A DNA stretch of 64,000 nucleotides, from positions 1 to 64,000 of the forward strand of contig JAIUOW010000002.1 in assembly GCA_020161775.1 (NCBI GenBank), given 5' to 3'. The notes below the pieces were generated by a model that saw only the letters and a list, made by a program, of their open reading frames with translations, did no database searches and had not been told where the DNA came from. Of the stretch, positions 4,821 through 37,180 are shown piece after piece. The stretch is from Pseudomonadota bacterium (GTDB taxonomy: Bacteria > Pseudomonadota > Gammaproteobacteria > Burkholderiales > Burkholderiaceae_C). Numbering within the stretch: the first letter of the stretch is position 1; every line of letters starts with the position of its first letter. Both the position numbers and the translations under genes were made by a program.

Positions 4821-5858
4821 ATGGGCCTGATGGACTTCATCAAGAAGCAGTTCATAGACATCATCCAGTGGACGGAAGACGGCGACGGCACGCTGGCCTG
4901 GCGCTTTCCCATGCGCGACATGGAAATCCAGAACGGCGCGTCGCTCACGGTGCGCGAATCGCAGATGGCGGTGTTCGTCAACGAGGGCAAGGTGGCCGAC
5001 GTGTTCGGCCCCGGCACCTACAAGCTCACGACCCAGACGCTGCCGGTGCTGACCTACCTGAAGAACTGGGACAAGCTGTTCGAGTCCCCGTTCAAGAGCG
5101 ACGTGTATTTCTTCAGCACGCGCCAGCAGGTGGACCAGAAATGGGGCACCCCGCAGCCCGTGACCATCCGCGACAAGGACTTTGGCGCCGTGCGTCTGCG
5201 CGCGTTTGGCAACTACAGCTTCCGCATCGCCGACCCCCGGCTGTTCCACACGGAAATCTCGGGCACCCGGGAAAGCTATGGCACCCAGGAGCTGGACGGC
5301 CAGCTGCGCGGCCTGGTGCTGCAGCACCTGTCGGACGCCATTGCGCAAAGCGGCATTCCGTTCCTGGACCTCGCAGCCAACCAGATTGAATTTGCCAAGG
5401 CACTGTCCACCGAGCTGGCGCCGGCGTTTGCGGCCATCGGCCTGCAGCTGGACGGCATGACGGTGCAGAACGTGTCGCTGCCCGAGGAACTGCAGAAGAT
5501 CCTGGACCAGAAGATCGGCATGGGCATGGTCGGCAACGACATGGGCAAGTTCATGCAGTATCAGACCGCGCAGGCCATACCCAAATTTGCCGAAGGCGGC
5601 GCGGGTGGCGGCGGAGGCATCGCGGGTGATGCCATGGGCCTGGGCGCGGGCGTGGCGCTGGGCCAGGTGCTGGCGCAGAACCTGCAGCAGGGGCTGCAGG
5701 GCGGGGCAGCGCAGGCCGGCCAGGCCGCGGCCGCCGCCATCAAGCCCGAGGACGTGATGGCCACGCTGGAGAAGCTGGGTGAACTCAAGGCCAAGGGCAT
5801 CCTGACGGACGAAGAGTTCAGCGCCAAAAAGGCCGAGCTGCTGAAGAAGCTGGTGTAG
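4821..5858 (+). CDS. SPFH-domain protein with C-terminal SHOCT domain
   Basis: A 345-residue protein. Residues 1 to about 240 form an SPFH (band 7)-like domain of the 'virion core protein' type (MGLMDFIKKQFIDIIQW, FGPGTYKLTTQTLPVL, VQNVSLPEELQKILDQKIG). A glycine/alanine-rich linker (about 250-305) follows, then a C-terminal SHOCT motif (ELKAKGILTDEEFSAKKAEL). SPFH proteins scaffold membrane microdomains; SHOCT pairs commonly occur on membrane-associated oligomeric proteins. There is no obvious transmembrane helix, so peripheral association is likely. SD GGAGG sits 7 bp before the ATG. It heads a co-directional run with DUF4178, DUF350, speE and a flavin oxidase. Confidence 0.85.
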   Translation: MGLMDFIKKQFIDIIQWTEDGDGTLAWRFPMRDMEIQNGASLTVRESQMAVFVNEGKVADVFGPGTYKLTTQTLPVLTYLKNWDKLFESPFKSDVYFFSTRQQVDQKWGTPQPVTIRDKDFGAVRLRAFGNYSFRIADPRLFHTEISGTRESYGTQELDGQLRGLVLQHLSDAIAQSGIPFLDLAANQIEFAKALSTELAPAFAAIGLQLDGMTVQNVSLPEELQKILDQKIGMGMVGNDMGKFMQYQTAQAIPKFAEGGAGGGGGIAGDAMGLGAGVALGQVLAQNLQQGLQGGAAQAGQAAAAAIKPEDVMATLEKLGELKAKGILTDEEFSAKKAELLKKLV

Positions 5859-5870
5859 CAGGCAAAGCCT

Positions 5871-5942
5871 GTCATCCCGGGCTTGACCCGGGATCCATGT
5901 TGGCACGCCAACGTCTGGATTGCGGGTCAGGCCCGCAATGAC
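5871..5942. repeat. Palindromic REP-like element, copy 1
   Basis: The element is bounded by GTCAT and ATGAC. It contains two small hairpins, CCCGG-GCTTGA-CCCGGG type at the left and GCGGGTCAGGCCCGC at the right, around the conserved word GGATCCATGT. A second copy with the same ends lies at 27851-27937. Here it sits between the SPFH stop and the DUF4178 start, so it is transcribed within the probable operon. Confidence 0.75.
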
Positions 5943-5952
5943 AGGAATCCCG

Positions 5953-7470
5953 ATGGCCACCGAACCCACCCCCCACCGCGCCTACCGCGCTCCCTGCCCC
6001 GGCTGCGGCGCGCCGGTTGAATTCCGCAGCGCCCAGTCCACGCATGCGGTGTGCGGCTACTGCCGCAGCACGGTGGTGCGCGACGGCGACGTGCTCAAGC
6101 GCGTGGGCAAGATGGCCGAGCTGTTTGACGACCACAGCCCGCTGCAGCTGCAGGCCAGCGGACATTGGCAGGGCCGCGCCTTCACGCTGGTGGGCCGGCT
6201 GCAATACAAGTCGCCCGCTGGCACCTGGACCGAATGGGAGGCGCTGCTGGACGATGGCAGCATGGCGACGCTGGCCGAAGACAACGGCGCGTATGTGTTC
6301 AGTGTGCCGGCTGCCATGCACCGCGAAGTGCCCGCGGCCGACAGGTTCCGCGTGGGCGCCATCACCGCCATCGGTGGCAAGCCGTTCAGCATTGCCAGCA
6401 ATGACCAGGCCGTGCTGGTGGCCGCGCAGGGCGAGCTGCCGCACCTGCCGCCGCTGGGCCAGCCGTTTGCGTTTGTGGAGTTGCGCAGCGCCGAGGGCGA
6501 GGTGCTCGGCATCGACTACGGCACGCAGCCGCCGTCGGTCTCGCGTGGGCGGGCGGTGCTGCTGGAGGAACTCAAGCTCAGCGGCCTGCGCGACGACATG
6601 GTCAAGCAGGAGCGCGGCCGGCAGTTCGCCTGCCCCCACTGCGGCGCGCCGGTGGAAGTGACCCTGGCCAACAGCAAGGCCATCACCTGCCGCTCGTGCA
6701 ACAGCCTGATTGACCTGGATTCCGGCATGGGCGCACAGCTGCGCCACGCCATCCAGGACGAGCCGGTGCAGCCCATCATCCCGCTGGGCAGCACGGGCCA
6801 GCTGCAGGGTGTGCAGTGGCAGGTGGTGGGCTTCCAGCACCGGCTGGGCCATGACCCGCAGGAGGAAGACGCGGAGCACTTCGGCTGGGACGAGTATTTG
6901 CTGTACCACCCCAAGCGCGGCTTCAGCTTCCTGGTGGACAGCGAAGAGGGCTGGAGCATGGTCAAGCCCACCACGGGCGCGCCGCAGTTGTCTGGCAACG
7001 GGCAAAGCGCCAGCTACCTGGGCAGCACGTACAAGCTGGAGTACAGCTACGAGGCCGAGACAACCTATGTGGCAGGCGAGTTTTACTGGCAGGTCGCGCG
7101 CGGGCAAAAGACCTTCAACCGCGACTTCGCCAAGGGCAAGGCGCTGCTGTCCATGGAGCAGACGCCGGCCGAGATCACCTGGTCCAGCGGCAGCCGCATG
7201 GAAGCGGACGCCATCATCAAGGCCTTTGGCCTGCAGGATAAAGCGGACCTGCTCAAGCGCACCGATGCCGCGCCTGTCAGCGCATCATCGGGCGTGGGCT
7301 GCATGACGGTGATTGTGCTGGCGCTCATCCTGCTGGTCTTCCTGGCGGTGTTGCGCGGCTGCATAGCCTCGTGCGACCCGCAGCGCGAGAACTGCAGCAG
7401 CTCGGGCAGCACCTGGCGTTCGGGCGGCGGCTCCTACGGCGGCTATTCCAGTGGCGGCAGCCACAAATGA
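5953..7470 (+). CDS. DUF4178-domain protein with zinc ribbons and C-terminal membrane anchor
   Basis: A 505-residue protein of unknown function. It opens with a zinc-ribbon-like CPGCGAP ... CGYCRS pair (about residues 16-37). A DUF4178 domain follows (SGHWQGRAFTLVGRLQYK, TEWEALLDDGSMATLAEDNG), then a second ribbon CPHCGAP ... CRSCNS (about 226-246). A second DUF4178-like unit follows (WQVVGFQHRLGHDPQEEDAE, WDEYLLYHPKRGFSFLVDSE). Near the C-terminus lie one transmembrane helix (MTVIVLALILLVFLAVL) and a Ser/Gly-rich tail. The start is ATG 5953, the first that excludes residues encoded by the REP element. DUF4178 genes recur beside DUF350 and aminopropyltransferase genes in other bacteria; a membrane-stress role is inferred from that context. 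Confidence 0.85.
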   Translation: MATEPTPHRAYRAPCPGCGAPVEFRSAQSTHAVCGYCRSTVVRDGDVLKRVGKMAELFDDHSPLQLQASGHWQGRAFTLVGRLQYKSPAGTWTEWEALLDDGSMATLAEDNGAYVFSVPAAMHREVPAADRFRVGAITAIGGKPFSIASNDQAVLVAAQGELPHLPPLGQPFAFVELRSAEGEVLGIDYGTQPPSVSRGRAVLLEELKLSGLRDDMVKQERGRQFACPHCGAPVEVTLANSKAITCRSCNSLIDLDSGMGAQLRHAIQDEPVQPIIPLGSTGQLQGVQWQVVGFQHRLGHDPQEEDAEHFGWDEYLLYHPKRGFSFLVDSEEGWSMVKPTTGAPQLSGNGQSASYLGSTYKLEYSYEAETTYVAGEFYWQVARGQKTFNRDFAKGKALLSMEQTPAEITWSSGSRMEADAIIKAFGLQDKADLLKRTDAAPVSASSGVGCMTVIVLALILLVFLAVLRGCIASCDPQRENCSSSGSTWRSGGGSYGGYSSGGSHK

Positions 7471-7509
7471 ATACACAGGTCTTTTTCATGTATCCAACCG
7501 GAGGTCATC

Positions 7510-7731
7510 ATGGGTTTTGAATGGCTGAAAGCAGGGGCCTTCTTCGGCTCCATCGTGTACGCGCTGGTCGGCGTGGTGGTGTTCTGGCTGAGCTTCATCG
7601 TCATCGACAAGATCACGCCCTACAACCTGTGGGAAGAGATCGTGGAGAAGCAGAACGTGGCGTTGGGCATCGTTGTGGGCGCCATGAGCCTGGGCATTTC
7701 CATCATCGTTGCGGCGGCTGTGCACGGATGA
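7510..7731 (+). CDS. DUF350 (YjfL-type) small membrane protein
   Basis: A 73-residue inner-membrane protein with two hydrophobic helices (about residues 8-30 and 50-70) separated by ITPYNLWEEIVEKQNVALGI. The pattern VVFWLSFIVIDKITPYNLWE followed by a GAMSLGISIIVAAAVHG end is typical of DUF350. In enterobacteria the family member YjfL lies in the PspA-like yjf operon. A GGAGG ribosome site is placed 7 bp before the ATG. It is 39 bp after the DUF4178 stop, so co-transcription is likely. About 590 bp of repeat DNA separates it from speE downstream. Confidence 0.85.
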   Translation: MGFEWLKAGAFFGSIVYALVGVVVFWLSFIVIDKITPYNLWEEIVEKQNVALGIVVGAMSLGISIIVAAAVHG

Positions 7732-7771
7732 CGCCTTGGCTGTTGTTCTGTAGCGCTCGTTGCATCGAGAG

Positions 7772-8014
7772 GCAAAGCTGCGCGGCTGGGCGCACCGGCC
7801 TGGCGGCTTCACTGGAACGGTCGCCTGCGGCGACTCCCCTGCGCTGCTCAGGGTTCGGTCGCACTGCGGAACTCGCTACGCGCTGCGCGCTGCGCTCGGA
7901 CAGCCGCAGTGAGTCAGAGCACGAAGCGCGCTGGCGCGCGCCGACACTCTCCCTTGCGCTGCTCGGCGTCCCAGAGGCGCCGCCAGGCCGGTGCGCCCAG
8001 CCGCGCAGCTTTGC
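7772..8014. repeat. Large palindromic element, locus A unit 1 (243 bp, 36-bp perfect terminal inverted repeats)
   Basis: The left arm 7772-7807 begins GCAAAGCTGCGCGGCTGGGC. The right arm 7979-8014 is its exact reverse complement over 36 bp. The 171-bp interior contains further short GC-rich hairpins such as CGCGCTGGCGCGCG. It is homologous to 36885-37127 in inverse orientation, with identical total length. The interior is also related to unit 2 (8056-8299) read on the other strand. No real coding sequence is present. Together with unit 2 it fills the 592-bp gap between the DUF350 and speE genes. Confidence 0.88.
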
Positions 8015-8055
8015 AGAGGCGTTGCTGATACGCCAACGGTGGTGTACTTGGGTCC

Positions 8056-8299
8056 GGGGTTCGCGACGGGCGGTGTGCGGCGGGGCGATTTCTGCGGTGG
8101 CGAGAAGCGCAGGGGGGAGTGTTGGCGCGCGCAGCGCGCAACGTGCACATGCTCGCTGCGGCTGTCTGAGCGGAATGGAGCGAAGCGCAATGCAGCGAGT
8201 TCCGCAGCGCAACCGACCCCCGAGCATCGCAGCGGAGTTTTCGCGAAGCGAAAGCCACCGCAGTATGAGCCCCGCCGCACACCGCCCGCCGCGAACCCC
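8056..8299. repeat. Large palindromic element, locus A unit 2 (244 bp, 31-bp terminal inverted repeats)
   Basis: The left arm 8056-8086 and right arm 8269-8299 are inverted repeats matching at 30 of 31 positions; the inner part reads GGGCGGTGTGCGGCGGGGC. Its reverse complement aligns with 36601-36844, which has the same length. The spacer to unit 1 is 41 bp. The right end lies only 24 bp from the proposed speE start, so the element would supply most of that gene's immediate upstream region. Confidence 0.87.
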
Positions 8300-8323
8300 G
8301 CGAGAGCGACAGCAAACTCCAAC

Positions 8324-9862
8324 GTGAGCACACAACCATCACCCCGCCCGGTCGAGGTGGCGCTGCTCGCCAGCGTCTTCGTCGTAGCCGCCTGCGGGCT
8401 GGTGTACGAGCTGGCAGCGGCAGCGCTGGCCTCCTATGTGCTGGGCGACTCGGTGCTGCAGTTCTCCACCATCATTGGTGCCTACCTGTTCGCGATGGGC
8501 GTGGGCTCGTACCTGTCCAGGTTCTTTGAGCGGCAGCTGCCCGCGCATTTCTTGCGCATCGAGCTGCTGGTGGCGCTGATCGGCGGCGCGCTGCCGGCCC
8601 TGCTGTTCATCGCCAACGCCTGGACGCCCGGCGCTTTCCGCCTGCTGCTGTACGGGCTGGTGCTGGTGGTGGGCATGCTGGTGGGGCTGGAGATACCGCT
8701 GGTCATGCGCATCCTCAAACGAAACGTGGCGCTGCGCGACCTGGTCTCGCAGGTGCTGACGTTTGACTATCTGGGCGCGCTGGCCGTGTCGGTTGCGTTC
8801 CCGCTGGTGCTGGTGCCGCAGCTGGGGCTGATCCGCACCGGGCTGCTGTTCGGCCTGATGAACGCGGCGGTGGCCGTATGGGCGCTATGGCTGTTCCGTG
8901 ACGAGCTGCGCCAGTGGCGCGCCCATGCCGCCGCCTGCGCGGGCGTGCTGGCCCTGCTGGGTGCGGGCTTTGCAGGGGCGGACCAGATCACCACGCTGGC
9001 CGAAGACCGCTTCTACCAGGACCGCATCGTTGCCAGCGAACGCTCGCCCTGGCAGCGCATCGTGGTGACGCAGGGCCGCACCGGCCACCGGCTGTTTCTC
9101 AATGGCAACCTGCAGTTTGCCGAGCGCGACGAATACCGCTACCACGAGGCGCTGGTGCACCCGGCCATGGCCGCGCATGGCGCGCCGAAGAAGGTGGCCG
9201 TGCTGGGCGGCGGCGACGGCATGGCGGTGCGCGAGGTGCTGAAGTACCCGTCGGTGCAAAGCATCACGCTGGTGGAGCTGGACCCGGCCATGACGCGGCT
9301 GTTTGCGCAGCAGCCCGCGCTGGCGCGGCTGAATGCCGGGGCACTGGCCTCGCCCAAGGTGACCATCGTCAACACCGACGCCTTCAAGTGGCTGGAGCAG
9401 GGGGCGGATCAGGGTGGAGGCAGCTACGACGTGATCGTGGTCGACTTCCCCGACCCGACCAACTTCGCCATCGGCAAGCTGTACACCAACTCGTTCTATG
9501 CGCTGCTGGACCAGCGGCTGGCCGCGGGCGGCTATGCCGTGGTGCAGACCACGTCGCCGCTGGTAGCGCGCAAGAGTTTCTGGACGGTGGTGGGCACGAT
9601 TGAATCCGTGGGCCTGCGCGCCGCGCCGTACCACGCGCATGTGCCCAGCTTCGGAGAATGGGGCTTTGTCATCGCCAGCCGCAGGCCCTGGCGCCTGCCC
9701 GATGCCCTGCCTGGGGGCTTGCGCTTTCTGGACCTGCCGGCGCTGGCGCCGATGTTTGACTTCCCGCGGGACATGGCGCGCGTGCCGGCGGACGTGAACC
9801 GCCTGTCCAACCAGGCGCTGGTCACCACCTACGAGCGCGAATGGGGCAAGGTGCACGAATGA
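8324..9862 (+). CDS. speE: Membrane-fused polyamine aminopropyltransferase (spermidine synthase-like)
   Basis: A 512-residue protein fusing an N-terminal membrane region (residues ~10-220, six to seven helices) to a C-terminal spermidine-synthase domain. The catalytic part shows YHEALVHP (273-280), the decarboxylated-AdoMet-binding GGGDG (295-299), VELDP (317-321) and FPDP (375-378). The predicted reaction transfers an aminopropyl group from decarboxylated AdoMet to an amine acceptor at the membrane; the acceptor is unknown. The GTG at 8324 is the only sensible start: the first helix begins 10 residues in, and upstream codons come from the repeat element. No strong ribosome site is visible. 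It overlaps the following flavin-oxidase gene by ATGA. Decarboxylated AdoMet could come from SpeH at 15197-15574. Confidence 0.85.
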   Translation: MSTQPSPRPVEVALLASVFVVAACGLVYELAAAALASYVLGDSVLQFSTIIGAYLFAMGVGSYLSRFFERQLPAHFLRIELLVALIGGALPALLFIANAWTPGAFRLLLYGLVLVVGMLVGLEIPLVMRILKRNVALRDLVSQVLTFDYLGALAVSVAFPLVLVPQLGLIRTGLLFGLMNAAVAVWALWLFRDELRQWRAHAAACAGVLALLGAGFAGADQITTLAEDRFYQDRIVASERSPWQRIVVTQGRTGHRLFLNGNLQFAERDEYRYHEALVHPAMAAHGAPKKVAVLGGGDGMAVREVLKYPSVQSITLVELDPAMTRLFAQQPALARLNAGALASPKVTIVNTDAFKWLEQGADQGGGSYDVIVVDFPDPTNFAIGKLYTNSFYALLDQRLAAGGYAVVQTTSPLVARKSFWTVVGTIESVGLRAAPYHAHVPSFGEWGFVIASRRPWRLPDALPGGLRFLDLPALAPMFDFPRDMARVPADVNRLSNQALVTTYEREWGKVHE

Positions 9863-11442
9863 TGCGCCGGCGCAGCCTGTTGGCCGCCACCGTGGCGGGT
9901 GGTGCGCTGGCGCTGCCGGGCTGCGAACGCGCGCCTGGCATCGCGGGCGATTTCACCGGTACCAGCCCCGGGCGCGGGCATCTGCTGCGCGAGCCGCCGC
10001 GCGGCATGGCGCCGGGCGTCACGCGCCGCGTGCACACCCTCATTGCCGGTGGCGGCGTGGCCGGGCTGGCCGCGGCGCGCGCGCTGCGCCTGCAGGGGCG
10101 GGATGACTTTGCCCTGCTGGAACTGGAAGACACCGCCGGCGGCAACAGCCGTGCGGGCAGCCTGCGCGGCATGGCCTGCCCGCTGGGCGCGCATTACCTG
10201 CCGGTGCCGGGCGACGATGCGCATGAAGTGCAGGACCTGCTGGAAGAGCTGAGCCTGCGCCAGCGCGTGGCCGGGCGCTGGCAGTATGACGAGCGCCACC
10301 TGTGCCACAGCCCGCAGGAGCGCCTGTTCTTCAACGGTGAATGGCAGGACGGCCTGCTGCCGGTACAGGGCGTGGGCGCGGCGACGCTGGCGCAGTACAC
10401 GCGGTTTGCGCAACGCATCGCGCAGCTGCAGCGCACCGCGCGCTTTGCCCTGCCGTCGTATCAAGCGCCCTTTACGTCGCAGCACGCAGCGCTGGACGGC
10501 ATGACGTTTGCGCGTTGGCTGGACGAAGAAGGCCTGGACGATGCGCACCTGCGCTGGTACCTGGACTACTGCTGCCGCGACGACTACGGCGCCGGCATCG
10601 CCACGGTATCGGCCTGGGCCGGCGTGCATTACTTCGCCAGCCGTCATGGCTTTCAGGCGCCGGGCGGTGACGATACGCCGCGCGACGCAGTGCTGACCTG
10701 GCCTGAAGGCAATGGCTGGCTCACCCGGCAGCTGGCTGCGCCGCTGGGCGACCGGCTGCGGCCAGCGCGCACGGTGCTGCGCATTGCCGAAACCCGTCAA
10801 GGCGTGGAAGTGGACGCGTGGGACCACGCCACCCGTACGCTGGAACGCTGGCAGGCCCGCCTGTGCATCGTGGCGTTGCCGGTGTTCGTGGCCGCGCGCA
10901 TTGTGCAAGACCCGCCAGCCGTGCTGCGTGCTGCAGCGGCACGCGCCCGGTACGCACCCTGGCTGGTGGCCAACATCCACCTGCGCGCGCCGCTGCATGA
11001 CCGCCCCGGCGCACCGCCCAGCTGGGACAACGTGCTGTACGGCTCCGCCGGGCTGGGCTATGTGGACGCGCGCCACCAGCTGCTGGACCCGCGCCCCGGC
11101 CCCACCGTGCTGACCTGGTACCACGCGCCAGGCCCGTCGCCACAGGCCCGTGCGCAGCTGCTGGACGCACCGTGGTCACATTGGCGCGCCCACGTGCTGG
11201 CCGAGCTGGCTCACGCCCACCCCGACCTGCCGGACGTGGCCACGCAAATCGACATCACGCGCTACGGCCACGCGATGGCCGTGCCGCTGCCCGGCGCGCG
11301 GCACGCGGCGGCCGCGGCCGCCGTGGTGTCGCCGCCTGGCGGCGTGCTGCGCTTCGCCCACAGCGACTGGTCGGGTTACTCGGTGTTTGAAGAGGCGTTC
11401 ACGCGCGGCCACCATGCCGGCATGGCGCGTTCTGGCGCATAA
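9859..11442 (+). CDS. FAD/NAD(P)-binding amine-oxidase-like flavoprotein, predicted lipoprotein
   Basis: A 527-residue protein. The N-terminus [20 protein letters not shown] followed by GC looks like a lipoprotein signal with C22 as acceptor, with a twin-arginine flavour. A Rossmann FAD motif AGGGVAGLAAARAL follows at 63-76, with an ELEDTAGGNS second-strand acidic region typical of flavin amine oxidases and protoporphyrinogen-oxidase-like proteins. The C-terminus carries YSVFEEAFTRG. It is translationally coupled to speE (ATGA overlap), so I infer that it oxidises the aminopropyl product or a related amine outside the cytoplasmic membrane. The substrate cannot be read from sequence. Confidence 0.78.
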   Translation: MMRRRSLLAATVAGGALALPGCERAPGIAGDFTGTSPGRGHLLREPPRGMAPGVTRRVHTLIAGGGVAGLAAARALRLQGRDDFALLELEDTAGGNSRAGSLRGMACPLGAHYLPVPGDDAHEVQDLLEELSLRQRVAGRWQYDERHLCHSPQERLFFNGEWQDGLLPVQGVGAATLAQYTRFAQRIAQLQRTARFALPSYQAPFTSQHAALDGMTFARWLDEEGLDDAHLRWYLDYCCRDDYGAGIATVSAWAGVHYFASRHGFQAPGGDDTPRDAVLTWPEGNGWLTRQLAAPLGDRLRPARTVLRIAETRQGVEVDAWDHATRTLERWQARLCIVALPVFVAARIVQDPPAVLRAAAARARYAPWLVANIHLRAPLHDRPGAPPSWDNVLYGSAGLGYVDARHQLLDPRPGPTVLTWYHAPGPSPQARAQLLDAPWSHWRAHVLAELAHAHPDLPDVATQIDITRYGHAMAVPLPGARHAAAAAAVVSPPGGVLRFAHSDWSGYSVFEEAFTRGHHAGMARSGA

Positions 11443-11463: not shown

Positions 11464-11820
11464 GTGGCCGAGAACCCCGCATTCGTTTCCGTCAAGCTGC
11501 CGGCCGAGCTGGTCAACCAGGCGCGTGAGGCGTCGCAGACCATGCGCCGCTCCGTGGCCAGCCAGATCGAGTACTGGGCCACGCTGGGCAAGGCGCTGGA
11601 GCACGCCGGCCTGACCACCAGCGACAGCCAGGCGCTGATCGCCCGCCAGGAACGCGCGCCTTACACCCTGTCCCCTCCTGCCAGCGGCCTGTCGCCGGAC
11701 CTGGACGACCTGCAAGGCCATGTGGTGGCGCTGGCCAAGTCCGGCGCGCTGGCAGACCGCACCCAGCAGGCCGTGGCCACCAACCGGGCCAAGCGCGGCA
11801 AGGACCCCAAAGCAGCCTGA
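11464..11820 (+). CDS. ParD-like antitoxin
   Basis: A 118-residue basic/acidic protein. The N-terminal FVSVKLPAELVNQAREASQT and MRRSVASQIEYWATLGKALE are typical of the ParD-like antitoxin family (ribbon-helix-helix fold). The C-terminal half is low-complexity and probably disordered, as expected for a toxin-binding tail. The start is GTG 11464, preceded by a perfect AAGGAGG about 6 bp upstream, which decides it. The zeta-type toxin gene follows after 6 bp. It likely represses its own promoter, though no palindrome stands out in the 21-bp gap to the flavoprotein gene. Confidence 0.8.
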   Translation: MAENPAFVSVKLPAELVNQAREASQTMRRSVASQIEYWATLGKALEHAGLTTSDSQALIARQERAPYTLSPPASGLSPDLDDLQGHVVALAKSGALADRTQQAVATNRAKRGKDPKAA

Positions 11821-11826
11821 CGGCGC

Positions 11827-12420
11827 ATGCCGGTTCTGCACCTGATCGCCGGGCCCAATGGCGCCGGCAAGTCCACGCTTTACCGCTGCCTGCTGGCGCC
11901 GCGGTATCCGGCCCTGCCGTTCGTCAACGCGCAGGCCTATGAGCAGGAACACCTGCAGCACCTGCCCACCCCCGAGGCCCGGGCGCTGGCCGCGCGCGAA
12001 TGGGCCGACGCCCAGCGCCAGGCGCTGCTGCGCGCCGGCCGGCCCTTCGTGACGGAAACCGCGCTGTCGCATCCGTCACGCCTGGCGCTCATGGCGCAGG
12101 CCCGCGCCATGGGCTACGAAGTGGTGCTGTATGCCCTGTGCGTGGACGAGCCGCGCCGCCTGCTGCAACGCGTGAGCCAGCGCCAGCGCGAGGGCGGCCA
12201 CGGCGTGCCGTCGCACAAGGTGCTGGAGCGTTACCCGCGCTGCGTGGACAACCTGCGCCGCGCCGTGCACATGGCCGACCTGGCGCTGCTGATGGACGGC
12301 AGCGATGCGGGCCAGGGCGGCCCGCGCCTGATTGCGACCATTGCCGCGGGCCAGATGCAGCTGCACGCGGTGCTGCGCCCGCGCTGGGCCGAGAAGGTGC
12401 TGGGGTTTGCCGAGGGCTGA
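11827..12420 (+). CDS. Zeta-toxin-family kinase
   Basis: A 197-residue P-loop protein: LIAGPNGAGKSTLYRCL with the Walker A at residues 9-16. The zeta-family TETALSH motif and the R-rich lid RQREGGHGVPSHKVLERYPR are present. Zeta toxins phosphorylate UDP-N-acetylamino sugars; chromosomal relatives paired with ParD-like genes are usually annotated as toxins. The usual acidic residue after the second strand (VNADxIA in many members) is replaced here (FVNAQAYEQEH), which could alter activity. The gene lies 6 bp after the antitoxin gene, so the two form a bicistronic unit. Confidence 0.82.
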   Translation: MPVLHLIAGPNGAGKSTLYRCLLAPRYPALPFVNAQAYEQEHLQHLPTPEARALAAREWADAQRQALLRAGRPFVTETALSHPSRLALMAQARAMGYEVVLYALCVDEPRRLLQRVSQRQREGGHGVPSHKVLERYPRCVDNLRRAVHMADLALLMDGSDAGQGGPRLIATIAAGQMQLHAVLRPRWAEKVLGFAEG

Positions 12421-13824: not shown

Positions 13825-14045
13825 TGCAGGCCTCCCCGCGCCTTGCGGAGCAACTCGATGCCACGCTCAACGCGGTTGGCGCCGCGCTGGGCCCGCACCA
13901 TGAAATGGGTTTCGGCGTCGAACTCCACCAGCGCCTGTGTGGTCAGTTCGTCCAGCAGCCGGGCAAGGCTTATGCCGCGCTGTTCAGCCATGGCTTTCAG
14001 GCGCTCGTGCTTGTGGTCGGGCAGTCGCAGGGTCAATGCACTCAT
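13821..14045 (-). CDS. Ribbon-helix-helix antitoxin partner of the PIN protein
   Basis: A 74-residue protein. MSALTLRLPDHKHERLKAMA followed by EQRGISLARLLDELTTQAL is a typical CopG/Arc-type ribbon-helix-helix N-terminus that would dimerise and bind palindromic DNA. The C-terminal part (FDAETHFMVRAQRGANRVER) would contact the toxin. The start overlaps the stop of the upstream PIN gene by 4 bp and its stop overlaps the pepP start by 4 bp. The likely operator is the perfect palindrome at 14460-14497. Toxin preceding antitoxin is less common than the reverse, but occurs in PIN families. Confidence 0.78.
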   Translation of the reverse strand: MSALTLRLPDHKHERLKAMAEQRGISLARLLDELTTQALVEFDAETHFMVRAQRGANRVERGIELLRKARGGLQ

Positions 14046-14461
14046 GTTGTCAGCTCCTTCAGCATTTGGGGTGGGGTGGCCAGCCTCAACAAGGGAAAGC
14101 GAAGCTCCATCGCGGAAAAATCGCGGACGTTCCAGGTGACGATGTGCGACGCGCTACAGGCGACCGCCAACTCCACCACATGGTTATCCGCCTCATCGCG
14201 GACGTTGGGGCGCCACAAATAATATGTTTTTGTCCATCGAGCGCTGGCAAGAAAAATGTCCAGCAACTCGTCTCGTTCACTGGCTGTCAGGTGGCTGCCT
14301 TCAAAAAGGCTTTCGCGTGAAAGCACGTCTTCGTATTCGCTCAACAGGGCGGGTCCTACGGCTGGCGTCCATATGCCGCGCAGACAGTTTTCGACAACTG
14401 CAGCGGACGCGCCAACGCCCAGACAGGCGCCAACAAGCACGTTGGTATCCACGATGATCAT
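14042..14461 (-). CDS. PIN-domain toxin (putative ribonuclease)
   Basis: A 139-residue PIN-domain protein of the 'putative toxin-antitoxin system toxin component, PIN family' type. Acidic metal-binding positions are visible as D5 (MIIVDTNVLVGA), E in LLSEYEDVL, D in VRDEADNHVVELA and D in WNVRDFSAME. PIN toxins cleave RNA with Mg2+ or Mn2+. The ATG at 14461 is the only start covering strand one; its first two bases belong to the right arm (mRNA sense) of a perfect 17-bp inverted repeat, and no Shine-Dalgarno is evident. It is the first gene of a PIN-RHH unit running into pepP. Confidence 0.83.
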   Translation of the reverse strand: MIIVDTNVLVGACLGVGASAAVVENCLRGIWTPAVGPALLSEYEDVLSRESLFEGSHLTASERDELLDIFLASARWTKTYYLWRPNVRDEADNHVVELAVACSASHIVTWNVRDFSAMELRFPLLRLATPPQMLKELTT

Positions 14462-14507: not shown

Positions 14508-15200
14508 TCAATTCTCGTTGATCTGGGCCAGCCGCTCGGGCGTGCCTACATCGGTCCAAGGGCCGGTGTACAGCTCGGCGGTGATGTGCCCATTGTCCAT
14601 CGCAGCACGCAGCAACGGGGCCAGCGGGGCTTTGATGCCCGCGGGGTTGCCGGACGGGATGGTGCACCAGGGCGGCTCGAACAGCGCGCGCCGGTACAGG
14701 CCGATCGTGGAAAAGGTGTATTTCACCTGCGCCTGGTTCAGCGCCAGGCCTTCAGGCGACAGGCCAAAGTCGCCCTTCAGGTTGTGCGCGGGGTTGGGCA
14801 CCAGCCAGATATGGCCCAGCTTGCCGCTGGCGGCGAAGCGGTCCACCGCTGCCTGCGTGAAGGCAAAGTCGGGCGCATACACGTCGCCCGCCAGTACCCA
14901 GAACACTTCGTCCAGCATGGGCAGTGCGCGCACAATGCCGCCCGCGGTCTCCAGCGCGCTGCCGAAGTCGCGGCCCTCGTGGGAACAGGCCAGCCGATCA
15001 CCGTAACGCTGTTCGATCTGCTCGCCCAACCAGGCCGTGTTGGCCAGCTGGCGCGTGAAGCCGCCCGCGGCCAGTGCCTCCATGGGCCATTGCATCAGCG
15101 GCTTGCCTTGCACTTCCAGCAAGGGTTTGGGTGTGGCGTCGGTCAGCGGCCGCATGCGTTCACCGCGTCCCGCCGCCAGAATCATGGCTTGTGCCGTCAT
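14508..15200 (-). CDS. murU: N-acetylmuramate alpha-1-phosphate uridylyltransferase (nucleotidyltransferase)
   Basis: A 230-residue nucleotidyltransferase of the GlmU/RmlA fold. The N-terminal signature AMILAAGRGERMRPLTDATP with KPLLEVQGKPLMQW, and the metal/nucleotide-binding FWVLAGDVYAPDF, are diagnostic. MurU converts MurNAc-1-phosphate to UDP-MurNAc in cell-wall recycling, bypassing fosfomycin-sensitive de novo synthesis. The partner kinase gene amgK is not adjacent here; speH is directly upstream with an ATGA overlap. Substrate assignment is by family resemblance; sugar-1-phosphate guanylyl- or thymidylyltransferase activity is the alternative. Confidence 0.78.
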   Translation of the reverse strand: MTAQAMILAAGRGERMRPLTDATPKPLLEVQGKPLMQWPMEALAAGGFTRQLANTAWLGEQIEQRYGDRLACSHEGRDFGSALETAGGIVRALPMLDEVFWVLAGDVYAPDFAFTQAAVDRFAASGKLGHIWLVPNPAHNLKGDFGLSPEGLALNQAQVKYTFSTIGLYRRALFEPPWCTIPSGNPAGIKAPLAPLLRAAMDNGHITAELYTGPWTDVGTPERLAQINEN

Positions 15201-15574
15201 GCTGCGTCACCCCTGTCCAGTGATCGTTGCTCGGTCCATTCCGGCGCGAACCGGTCCACCAGCGCATCCATCAGGACGCGCGCCTTGGCCGAGTGGTCGG
15301 CGCCGAAGTTGCACACATAGACATCGAGCGTCACGGCGCGCTCTTCGGGCCAGGTGTGCACGCACAGGTGCGATTCGGCCAGCAGCACGGTAGCCGTCAC
15401 GCCGCCCGGCCCGCGCGGCGTGGCGGGAAAGGTGTGGAACAACTGGTTTACCGGCTGCAGCCCTGCGGCCTGCACCGCCTGCACGCACCAGGCGCCCAAG
15501 TGGGCCGCGTCGGTCAGCCAGGCCGCGTCGCAGCGGCACTGGTACAGGTCGGCGGTCAGGTGAAGGCCTTGCAT
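15197..15574 (-). CDS. speH: S-adenosylmethionine decarboxylase proenzyme
   Basis: A 125-residue pyruvoyl enzyme. The processing region LLAESHLCVHTWPEERAVTL contains the Ser that would become the pyruvoyl group after self-cleavage at E-S, and the His/Trp-Pro-Glu box; it is followed by DVYVCNFGADHSAKA. The length matches prokaryotic SpeH. It makes decarboxylated AdoMet, the aminopropyl donor for SpeE. The start is ATG 15574, placing GLHLTADLY at the N-terminus; longer readings run into the tkt leader. It overlaps murU by 4 bp. It may feed the membrane aminopropyltransferase at 8324-9862. Confidence 0.87.
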   Translation of the reverse strand: MQGLHLTADLYQCRCDAAWLTDAAHLGAWCVQAVQAAGLQPVNQLFHTFPATPRGPGGVTATVLLAESHLCVHTWPEERAVTLDVYVCNFGADHSAKARVLMDALVDRFAPEWTEQRSLDRGDAA

Positions 15575-36568: not shown

Positions 36569-36600
36569 AATGCTTGTGTGTGTTGCTTCTGTGGCGCTCG

Positions 36601-36844
36601 CTGCTTCGCGGCGGGCGGAGTGCGGCGGGGCTCATACTGCGGTGGTTTTTGCTGCGCAAAAACTCCGCTGCGATGCTCGGGGGTCGGTTGCGCCGCGGAA
36701 CTCGCTGCATTGCGCTTCGCTCCATTCCGCTCAGACAGCCGCGGCGAGCATGAGTACGACGCGCGCTACGCGCGCCAACACTCCCCCCTGCGCTTCTCGC
36801 CACCGCAGAAATCGCCCCGCCGCACTCCGCCCGCCGCGAAGCAG
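36601..36844. repeat. Large palindromic element, locus B unit 2 (244 bp, 31-bp perfect terminal inverted repeats)
   Basis: The left arm 36601-36631 and right arm 36814-36844 are exact inverted repeats; the inner sequence is GGGCGGAGTGCGGCGGGGC. This is the reverse complement relative of 8056-8299, with the same length. The T at arm position 19 in locus A is A here, and the paired base in the other arm changes with it. The interior holds a TTTTTGCTGCGCAAAAA hairpin. It begins 32 bp after the ligase stop. Confidence 0.88.
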
Positions 36845-36884
36845 AAGAGTGGCACTCCAACGGTGGCGCGCCAATACTGTCACT

Positions 36885-37127
36885 GCAAAGCTGCGGCTGC
36901 GGGCACACCGGCCTGGGGGCGCCTCTGTGGCGCTGAGCAGCACAGGGGTGAGTGTCGGCGCGCGTAAGCGCGCTTCGTGCTCTGACTCGCCGAAGCTGTT
37001 TGAGCGGAGCGCGCAGCGCGTAGCGAGTTCTTCGGCGCGACCGAACCCCGAGCAGCGCAAGGGAGTCGCCGCAGGCGACCGTCACAGTGAAGCCCCCAGG
37101 CCGGTGTGCCCGCAGCCGCAGCTTTGC
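36885..37127. repeat. Large palindromic element, locus B unit 1 (243 bp, 36-bp perfect terminal inverted repeats)
   Basis: The left arm 36885-36920 begins GCAAAGCTGCGGCTGCGGGC. The right arm 37092-37127 is its exact reverse complement over 36 bp. It is the inverse-orientation relative of 7772-8014. Seven of 36 arm positions differ from locus A, and all seven are compensated in the opposite arm. It ends 53 bp before the Fe-alcohol dehydrogenase start. Together with unit 2 it fills the 612-bp gap; nothing else is seen there. Confidence 0.88.
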
Positions 37128-37180
37128 CGCGAGGTCTAACCCAGCACAACAACGCAACGAAAACAACGAAGAGCACCCAC

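Follow-up and report, generated by a model that had tools for sequence, protein, structure and literature searches.

Operons that combine SpeE-7TM, DUF350 and DUF4178 proteins, and PspA-less variants with band-7/SHOCT proteins, have been described previously (Ravi et al. 2024, PMC11237479). According to the section of that survey on DUF350-holding operons, one variant without PspA has band-7/SHOCT operons with an AdoMet decarboxylase and a polyamine oxidase, and Li et al. 2019 (Biochem J 476:2579) is cited there for a polyamine-independent role of AdoMet decarboxylase. The same source gives a CesT/Tir-PspA operon (e.g. AAN56744.1), in which membrane SpeE, DUF350 and DUF4178 occur with PspA, CesT/Tir and a Ctha_1186 lipoprotein. 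In Bacillus subtilis, the pspA-ydjGHI operon encodes an SPFH protein, YdjI, which depends on the membrane proteins YdjG/H and recruits PspA to the membrane (PMC8581546). Among the matches listed for literature on DUF4178, DUF350, YjfL and MFS-SpdSyn, DUF4178 is named in no paper other than Ravi et al. 2024, and among the matches listed this is also the only paper that brings spermidine synthase, flotillin, polyamine oxidase and operon together.

The stretch of bacterial DNA analysed here (the window, 64,000 nucleotides) contains a related gene set, with the following features:

4821..5858, plus strand: SPFH (Band_7_1) protein with a C-terminal SHOCT domain, 345 aa (Band_7_1 E 1.1e-78, SHOCT 2.4e-9)
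5953..7470, plus strand: DUF4178 protein, 505 aa (E 2.1e-28 in two stretches)
7510..7731, plus strand: DUF350 protein, 73 aa (E 2.7e-15)
7771..8314 (approximate), no strand: ORF-less nested inverted-repeat element, an insertion outside the module function
8324..9862, plus strand: membrane SpeE, 512 aa, with an N-terminal membrane domain and a C-terminal aminopropyltransferase domain
9859..11442 (alternative start 9841), plus strand: flavin oxidase with the MAO/putrescine-oxidase fold, twin-Arg and lipobox-like Cys
15197..15574, minus strand: AdoMet decarboxylase SpeD, about 125 aa, candidate source of decarboxylated AdoMet (dcAdoMet)

The original prediction named five co-directional genes of these families, and translation together with Pfam/NCBIfam profiles confirmed all five reading frames; it overlooked the sixth gene, speD, and the repeat element of about 550 bp. 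It also described a polyamine-linked membrane set without PspA and ATP-grasp partners. This is borne out by the conserved neighbourhood described below and by searches of the whole genome that holds the window, in which neither PspA (PF04012) nor the ATP-grasp partner (GSP_synth, PF03738) has a match; a PspA match occurs in 10 of 120 genomes surveyed and in six of the 44 that carry the module. As a gene set it is not new, since gene sets of this kind are already in Ravi et al. 2024 (PMC11237479). We lean towards reading the six genes as a dcAdoMet-dependent membrane aminopropyltransferase module with an exported oxidase and an SPFH-SHOCT/DUF4178/DUF350 platform.

The module agrees with the PspA-less variant of Ravi et al. 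in having band-7 and SHOCT domains, AdoMet decarboxylase and polyamine oxidase without the PspA dyad, and it may be the same set (PMC11237479). However, that variant has two transmembrane segments between band-7 and SHOCT, whereas a simple hydropathy scan detected none in the SPFH-SHOCT protein here; it is placed among the variants of the ATP-grasp group, and the section text compared mentions neither DUF4178 nor export of the oxidase. The CesT/Tir-PspA operon shares membrane SpeE, DUF350 and DUF4178 with the present module, which has SPFH-SHOCT and a flavin oxidase in place of PspA, CesT/Tir and the lipoprotein (PMC11237479). The likeness to pspA-ydjGHI lies in an SPFH protein acting with membrane proteins; YdjI, however, joins PspA to the membrane without SpeE or an oxidase, whereas the SPFH protein here seems to do without PspA (PMC8581546). 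The layout of YdjG (a pair of zinc ribbons, another domain and a transmembrane segment) resembles that of the DUF4178 protein (PMC8581546, PMC11237479), which has two CxxC pairs with eight cysteines, all invariant among 36 sequences, and a C-terminal hydrophobic segment followed by a Gly/Ser tail. The DUF350 protein has two hydrophobic segments within its 73 aa in the hydropathy scan. Four points are added by our analysis: SpeD belongs to the module as its sixth gene, an ordinary SpeD takes its place in four genomes, the SpeE loop is distinct, and the export signal of the oxidase is conserved; none of the four was seen in the papers cited here. A short REP-like inverted repeat was recognized by eye at 5864-5948, between the SPFH and DUF4178 genes.

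The regions around the oxidase gene were sampled from 43 relatives belonging to 43 different genera. All five genes are present in 32 of these regions, 30 of them with identical order and strand, so that the set is conserved well beyond close relatives. The SPFH, DUF4178 and DUF350 genes are directed away from SpeE and the oxidase at two loci (L101 and L103), and in the other 11 regions at least SPFH is missing within the stretch examined. In a second sample, the best 80 distinct loci of at least 589 matching stretches, 63 extend for at least 6.5 kb upstream of the oxidase, and all five genes are present in 47 of these 63; the named genera among the best 80 are Burkholderiales, e.g. Variovorax, Acidovorax, Ramlibacter, Rhodoferax and Polaromonas. 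A DUF4178-SpeE-oxidase run was also found in G179, from a different family of the same class, with no match to SPFH or DUF350 in the stretch. Neighbourhood matches scoring below the thresholds were excluded before counting. At nine loci, further genes are inserted among those of the cluster; by eye, they resemble sensor kinases, a helicase and others.

Co-occurrence was counted in 120 genomes, including the one under study, and is far above chance expectation by Fisher values that ignore kinship. Membrane SpeE is present in 44 genomes and DUF4178 in the same 44 (7.5e-34). The oxidase also occurs in 44 genomes and shares 43 of them with membrane SpeE (2.5e-30); SpeD occurs in 49 and shares 40 (1.5e-18). 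Seven partial matches with E values of 1.6e-8 to 9.1e-4 (G026, G033, G044, G057, G074, G089 and G100) were left out of the oxidase counts, and two weak matches (G056 and G113) and the fragment in G016 out of the SpeE counts. The two mismatches between oxidase and SpeE, one in each direction, are G040, a genome 74% complete whose SpeE lies at the edge of a contig, and G016, whose locus (L104) has a broken oxidase and an SpeE fragment, with no match to DUF4178 or SpeD; to judge from its sequence, it is a module decaying as a unit. These patterns bear on whether the oxidase, and perhaps SPFH and DUF350 too, is a mere neighbour, that is, a general flavoprotein of the periplasm that acts on a substrate of its own and is kept near by shared regulation or inheritance. 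The gap between SpeE and oxidase exceeds 1 kb at 11 of 67 loci, the two genes lie on different contigs in G103, and the fold of the oxidase leaves its substrate unfixed, all of which would suit such a neighbour. However, the median gap over the same 67 loci is only 29 nt, and 43 genomes share both genes with a single exception each way. We consider mere neighbourhood improbable.

Membrane SpeE matches NCBIfam NF002956/PRK03612, named polyamine aminopropyltransferase, at 681.6 bits (cut-off 472) over residues 7-509, so that the match spans both the membrane and the transferase domains. The catalytic residues checked are retained in all 40 membrane SpeE sequences compared. The same 40 carry a loop of their own after the catalytic Asp, which is found in none of 11 cytosolic SpeE proteins. 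In 40 of the 44 module genomes, the search gave no match to a cytosolic aminopropyltransferase (SpeE); the remaining four (G004, G010, G015 and G025) carry both the membrane and the cytosolic form. The genome under study has an ODC-type gene, and a second, weak PF01564 match (28.9 bits) lies at G000:C3:130831-131088 (L002).

The main rival to the preferred reading is plain spermidine synthesis with turnover at the surface: SpeE would be an ordinary, if membrane-bound, spermidine synthase delivering spermidine to the periplasm or surface in amounts limited by the exported oxidase, and the other genes would aid envelope stress. The retained catalytic residues, the NCBIfam name, the ODC-type gene and the 40 genomes without a cytosolic SpeE match are all consistent with this, as is the 5.13% spermidine reported for Caenimonas aquaedulcis (PMC9628874), a member of a genus that has the cluster (L169). 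However, four genomes retain the membrane SpeE beside a cytosolic one, and the membrane form consistently differs in its loop after the catalytic Asp. Furthermore, Li et al. are said to have reported in 2019 on organisms that possess AdoMetDC and a membrane-fused SpdSyn yet no spermidine, and on a non-polyamine role of an AdoMetDC that stands, as in the present module, beside a membrane-fused SpdSyn-like protein. We regard ordinary spermidine synthesis as possible, but rather unlikely.

The sixth gene lies 3.8 kb downstream of the oxidase on the opposite strand. An AdoMet decarboxylase search of the 120 genomes gave a single match in the genome under study, at 15209-15562 minus in the window, and the gene (15197-15574) scores 98 bits against a PF02675 cut-off of 25. 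ESH and HT/SWP motifs and a downstream Cys are present in all 54 SpeD sequences (duplicates included), one of which reads HSWP; we take these to be the functional motifs of AdoMet decarboxylase. The distance between SpeD and oxidase is below 15 kb in 22 of 40 genomes, and in the other 18 SpeD lies farther away or on another contig; no SpeD match was found in the module genomes G008, G009, G040 and G061. In all nine SpeD genomes without membrane SpeE, a cytosolic SpeE gene is found no more than about 160 bp from speD. In the four genomes with both forms of SpeE, the only SpeD found adjoins the cytosolic SpeE in an ordinary speD-speE pair, and SpeD is thus most likely the provider of dcAdoMet to the membrane SpeE. 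The plain reading of these four genomes is that a spermidine synthase does not make the membrane SpeE redundant. Because speD co-occurs with the module, the proposed link to dcAdoMet has become stronger than first claimed.

SpeD proteins altered to ornithine or arginine decarboxylases have been described from genomes that lack SpeE or have a second SpeD, and that lack canonical ADC/ODC (PMC10407285). We rejected such a change for the SpeD of this module, against which speak the presence of SpeE and an ODC-type gene and the ordinary SpeD that replaces it in four genomes. The speD gene and the start of a nucleotidyltransferase gene (NTP_transferase) overlap, the two genes together spanning 14508-15574 on the minus strand; the nucleotidyltransferase is presumably MurU-like, and a gene group with NTP_transferase-type proteins appears in the regions of some relatives. 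A lone PIN_3-domain gene (14042-14461 minus) lies between an M24 peptidase gene and the nucleotidyltransferase gene.

Two starts are available for the oxidase gene. Position 9841 would give a 22-nt overlap with speE, whereas ATG 9859 gives an ATGA overlap and places a twin-arginine signal at the N-terminus, and is for these reasons the likelier start. The only Pfam model above its cut-off is NAD_binding_8 (E 1e-10); Pfam amine-oxidase models gave no match up to E 1, and none of the NCBIfam models exceeded its cut-off. The name amine oxidase is thus based on profile and fold matches rather than on Pfam/NCBIfam. By fold match the protein belongs with the monoamine and putrescine oxidases (PDB 2yg6, 8p84), with which it shares the fold and the FAD domain; it differs from them in an identity of around 20% and in being predicted to be exported. 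Among 43 oxidases, the twin arginine is present in 42 and the cysteine in all, and 29 fit a strict lipobox pattern. Given this signal, the oxidase should be a Tat-exported lipoprotein facing the periplasm.

A ParD-like antitoxin gene and a zeta-toxin/AAA_33 gene (11464-12420) begin 21 bp behind the oxidase. This pair is not in the gene groups common to at least six of 47 regions, as defined with a crude gene caller that skips many small genes, and we rejected it as a member of the module. The rejection is provisional, because a ribbon-helix-helix gene ends some related operons (Ravi et al. 2024, PMC11237479).

Probably, the module couples a small amine group to some target at the cell membrane and, outside the membrane, oxidises an amine. 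In the reading that we prefer, SpeD would convert AdoMet to dcAdoMet, and membrane SpeE, working at the inner face of the cytoplasmic membrane, would pass the aminopropyl group to an acceptor that probably differs from free putrescine or is not limited to it. On the periplasmic side, the putatively lipid-anchored flavin amine oxidase would oxidise the SpeE product or an amine released from it, thereby either maturing the product or turning it over. SPFH-SHOCT, DUF4178 and DUF350 may form a membrane platform that holds or regulates SpeE, standing where PspA, SPFH and zinc-ribbon membrane proteins stand elsewhere. The original proposal, in which a membrane target is aminopropylated and then oxidised, would agree with both the distinct SpeE loop and the oxidase export signal. 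We give little credence to its most specific form, in which the acceptor is a lipid, a quinone-like compound or a protein amine resident in the membrane and, once it has passed to the other side, the periplasmic oxidase turns its new amine into an aldehyde; if true, it would amount to a two-sided modification of the envelope with dcAdoMet as donor. More generally, the module bears on uses of dcAdoMet besides ordinary polyamines, being compact, conserved and mostly with no match to a cytosolic aminopropyltransferase alongside.

The gap between the DUF350 and SpeE genes measures 592 bases and is mostly occupied by the nested inverted-repeat element, so a single transcript for the five genes is not to be assumed. 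About 10-20 bases separate the element from the SpeE start codon downstream, which suggests that the ribosome-binding site of speE may be supplied by the element. Ten near-complete copies at 81-91% identity, one at 72% and many partial copies are found elsewhere in the genome. Within the window, the element of about 550 bp also occurs at 36589-37128 on the minus strand.
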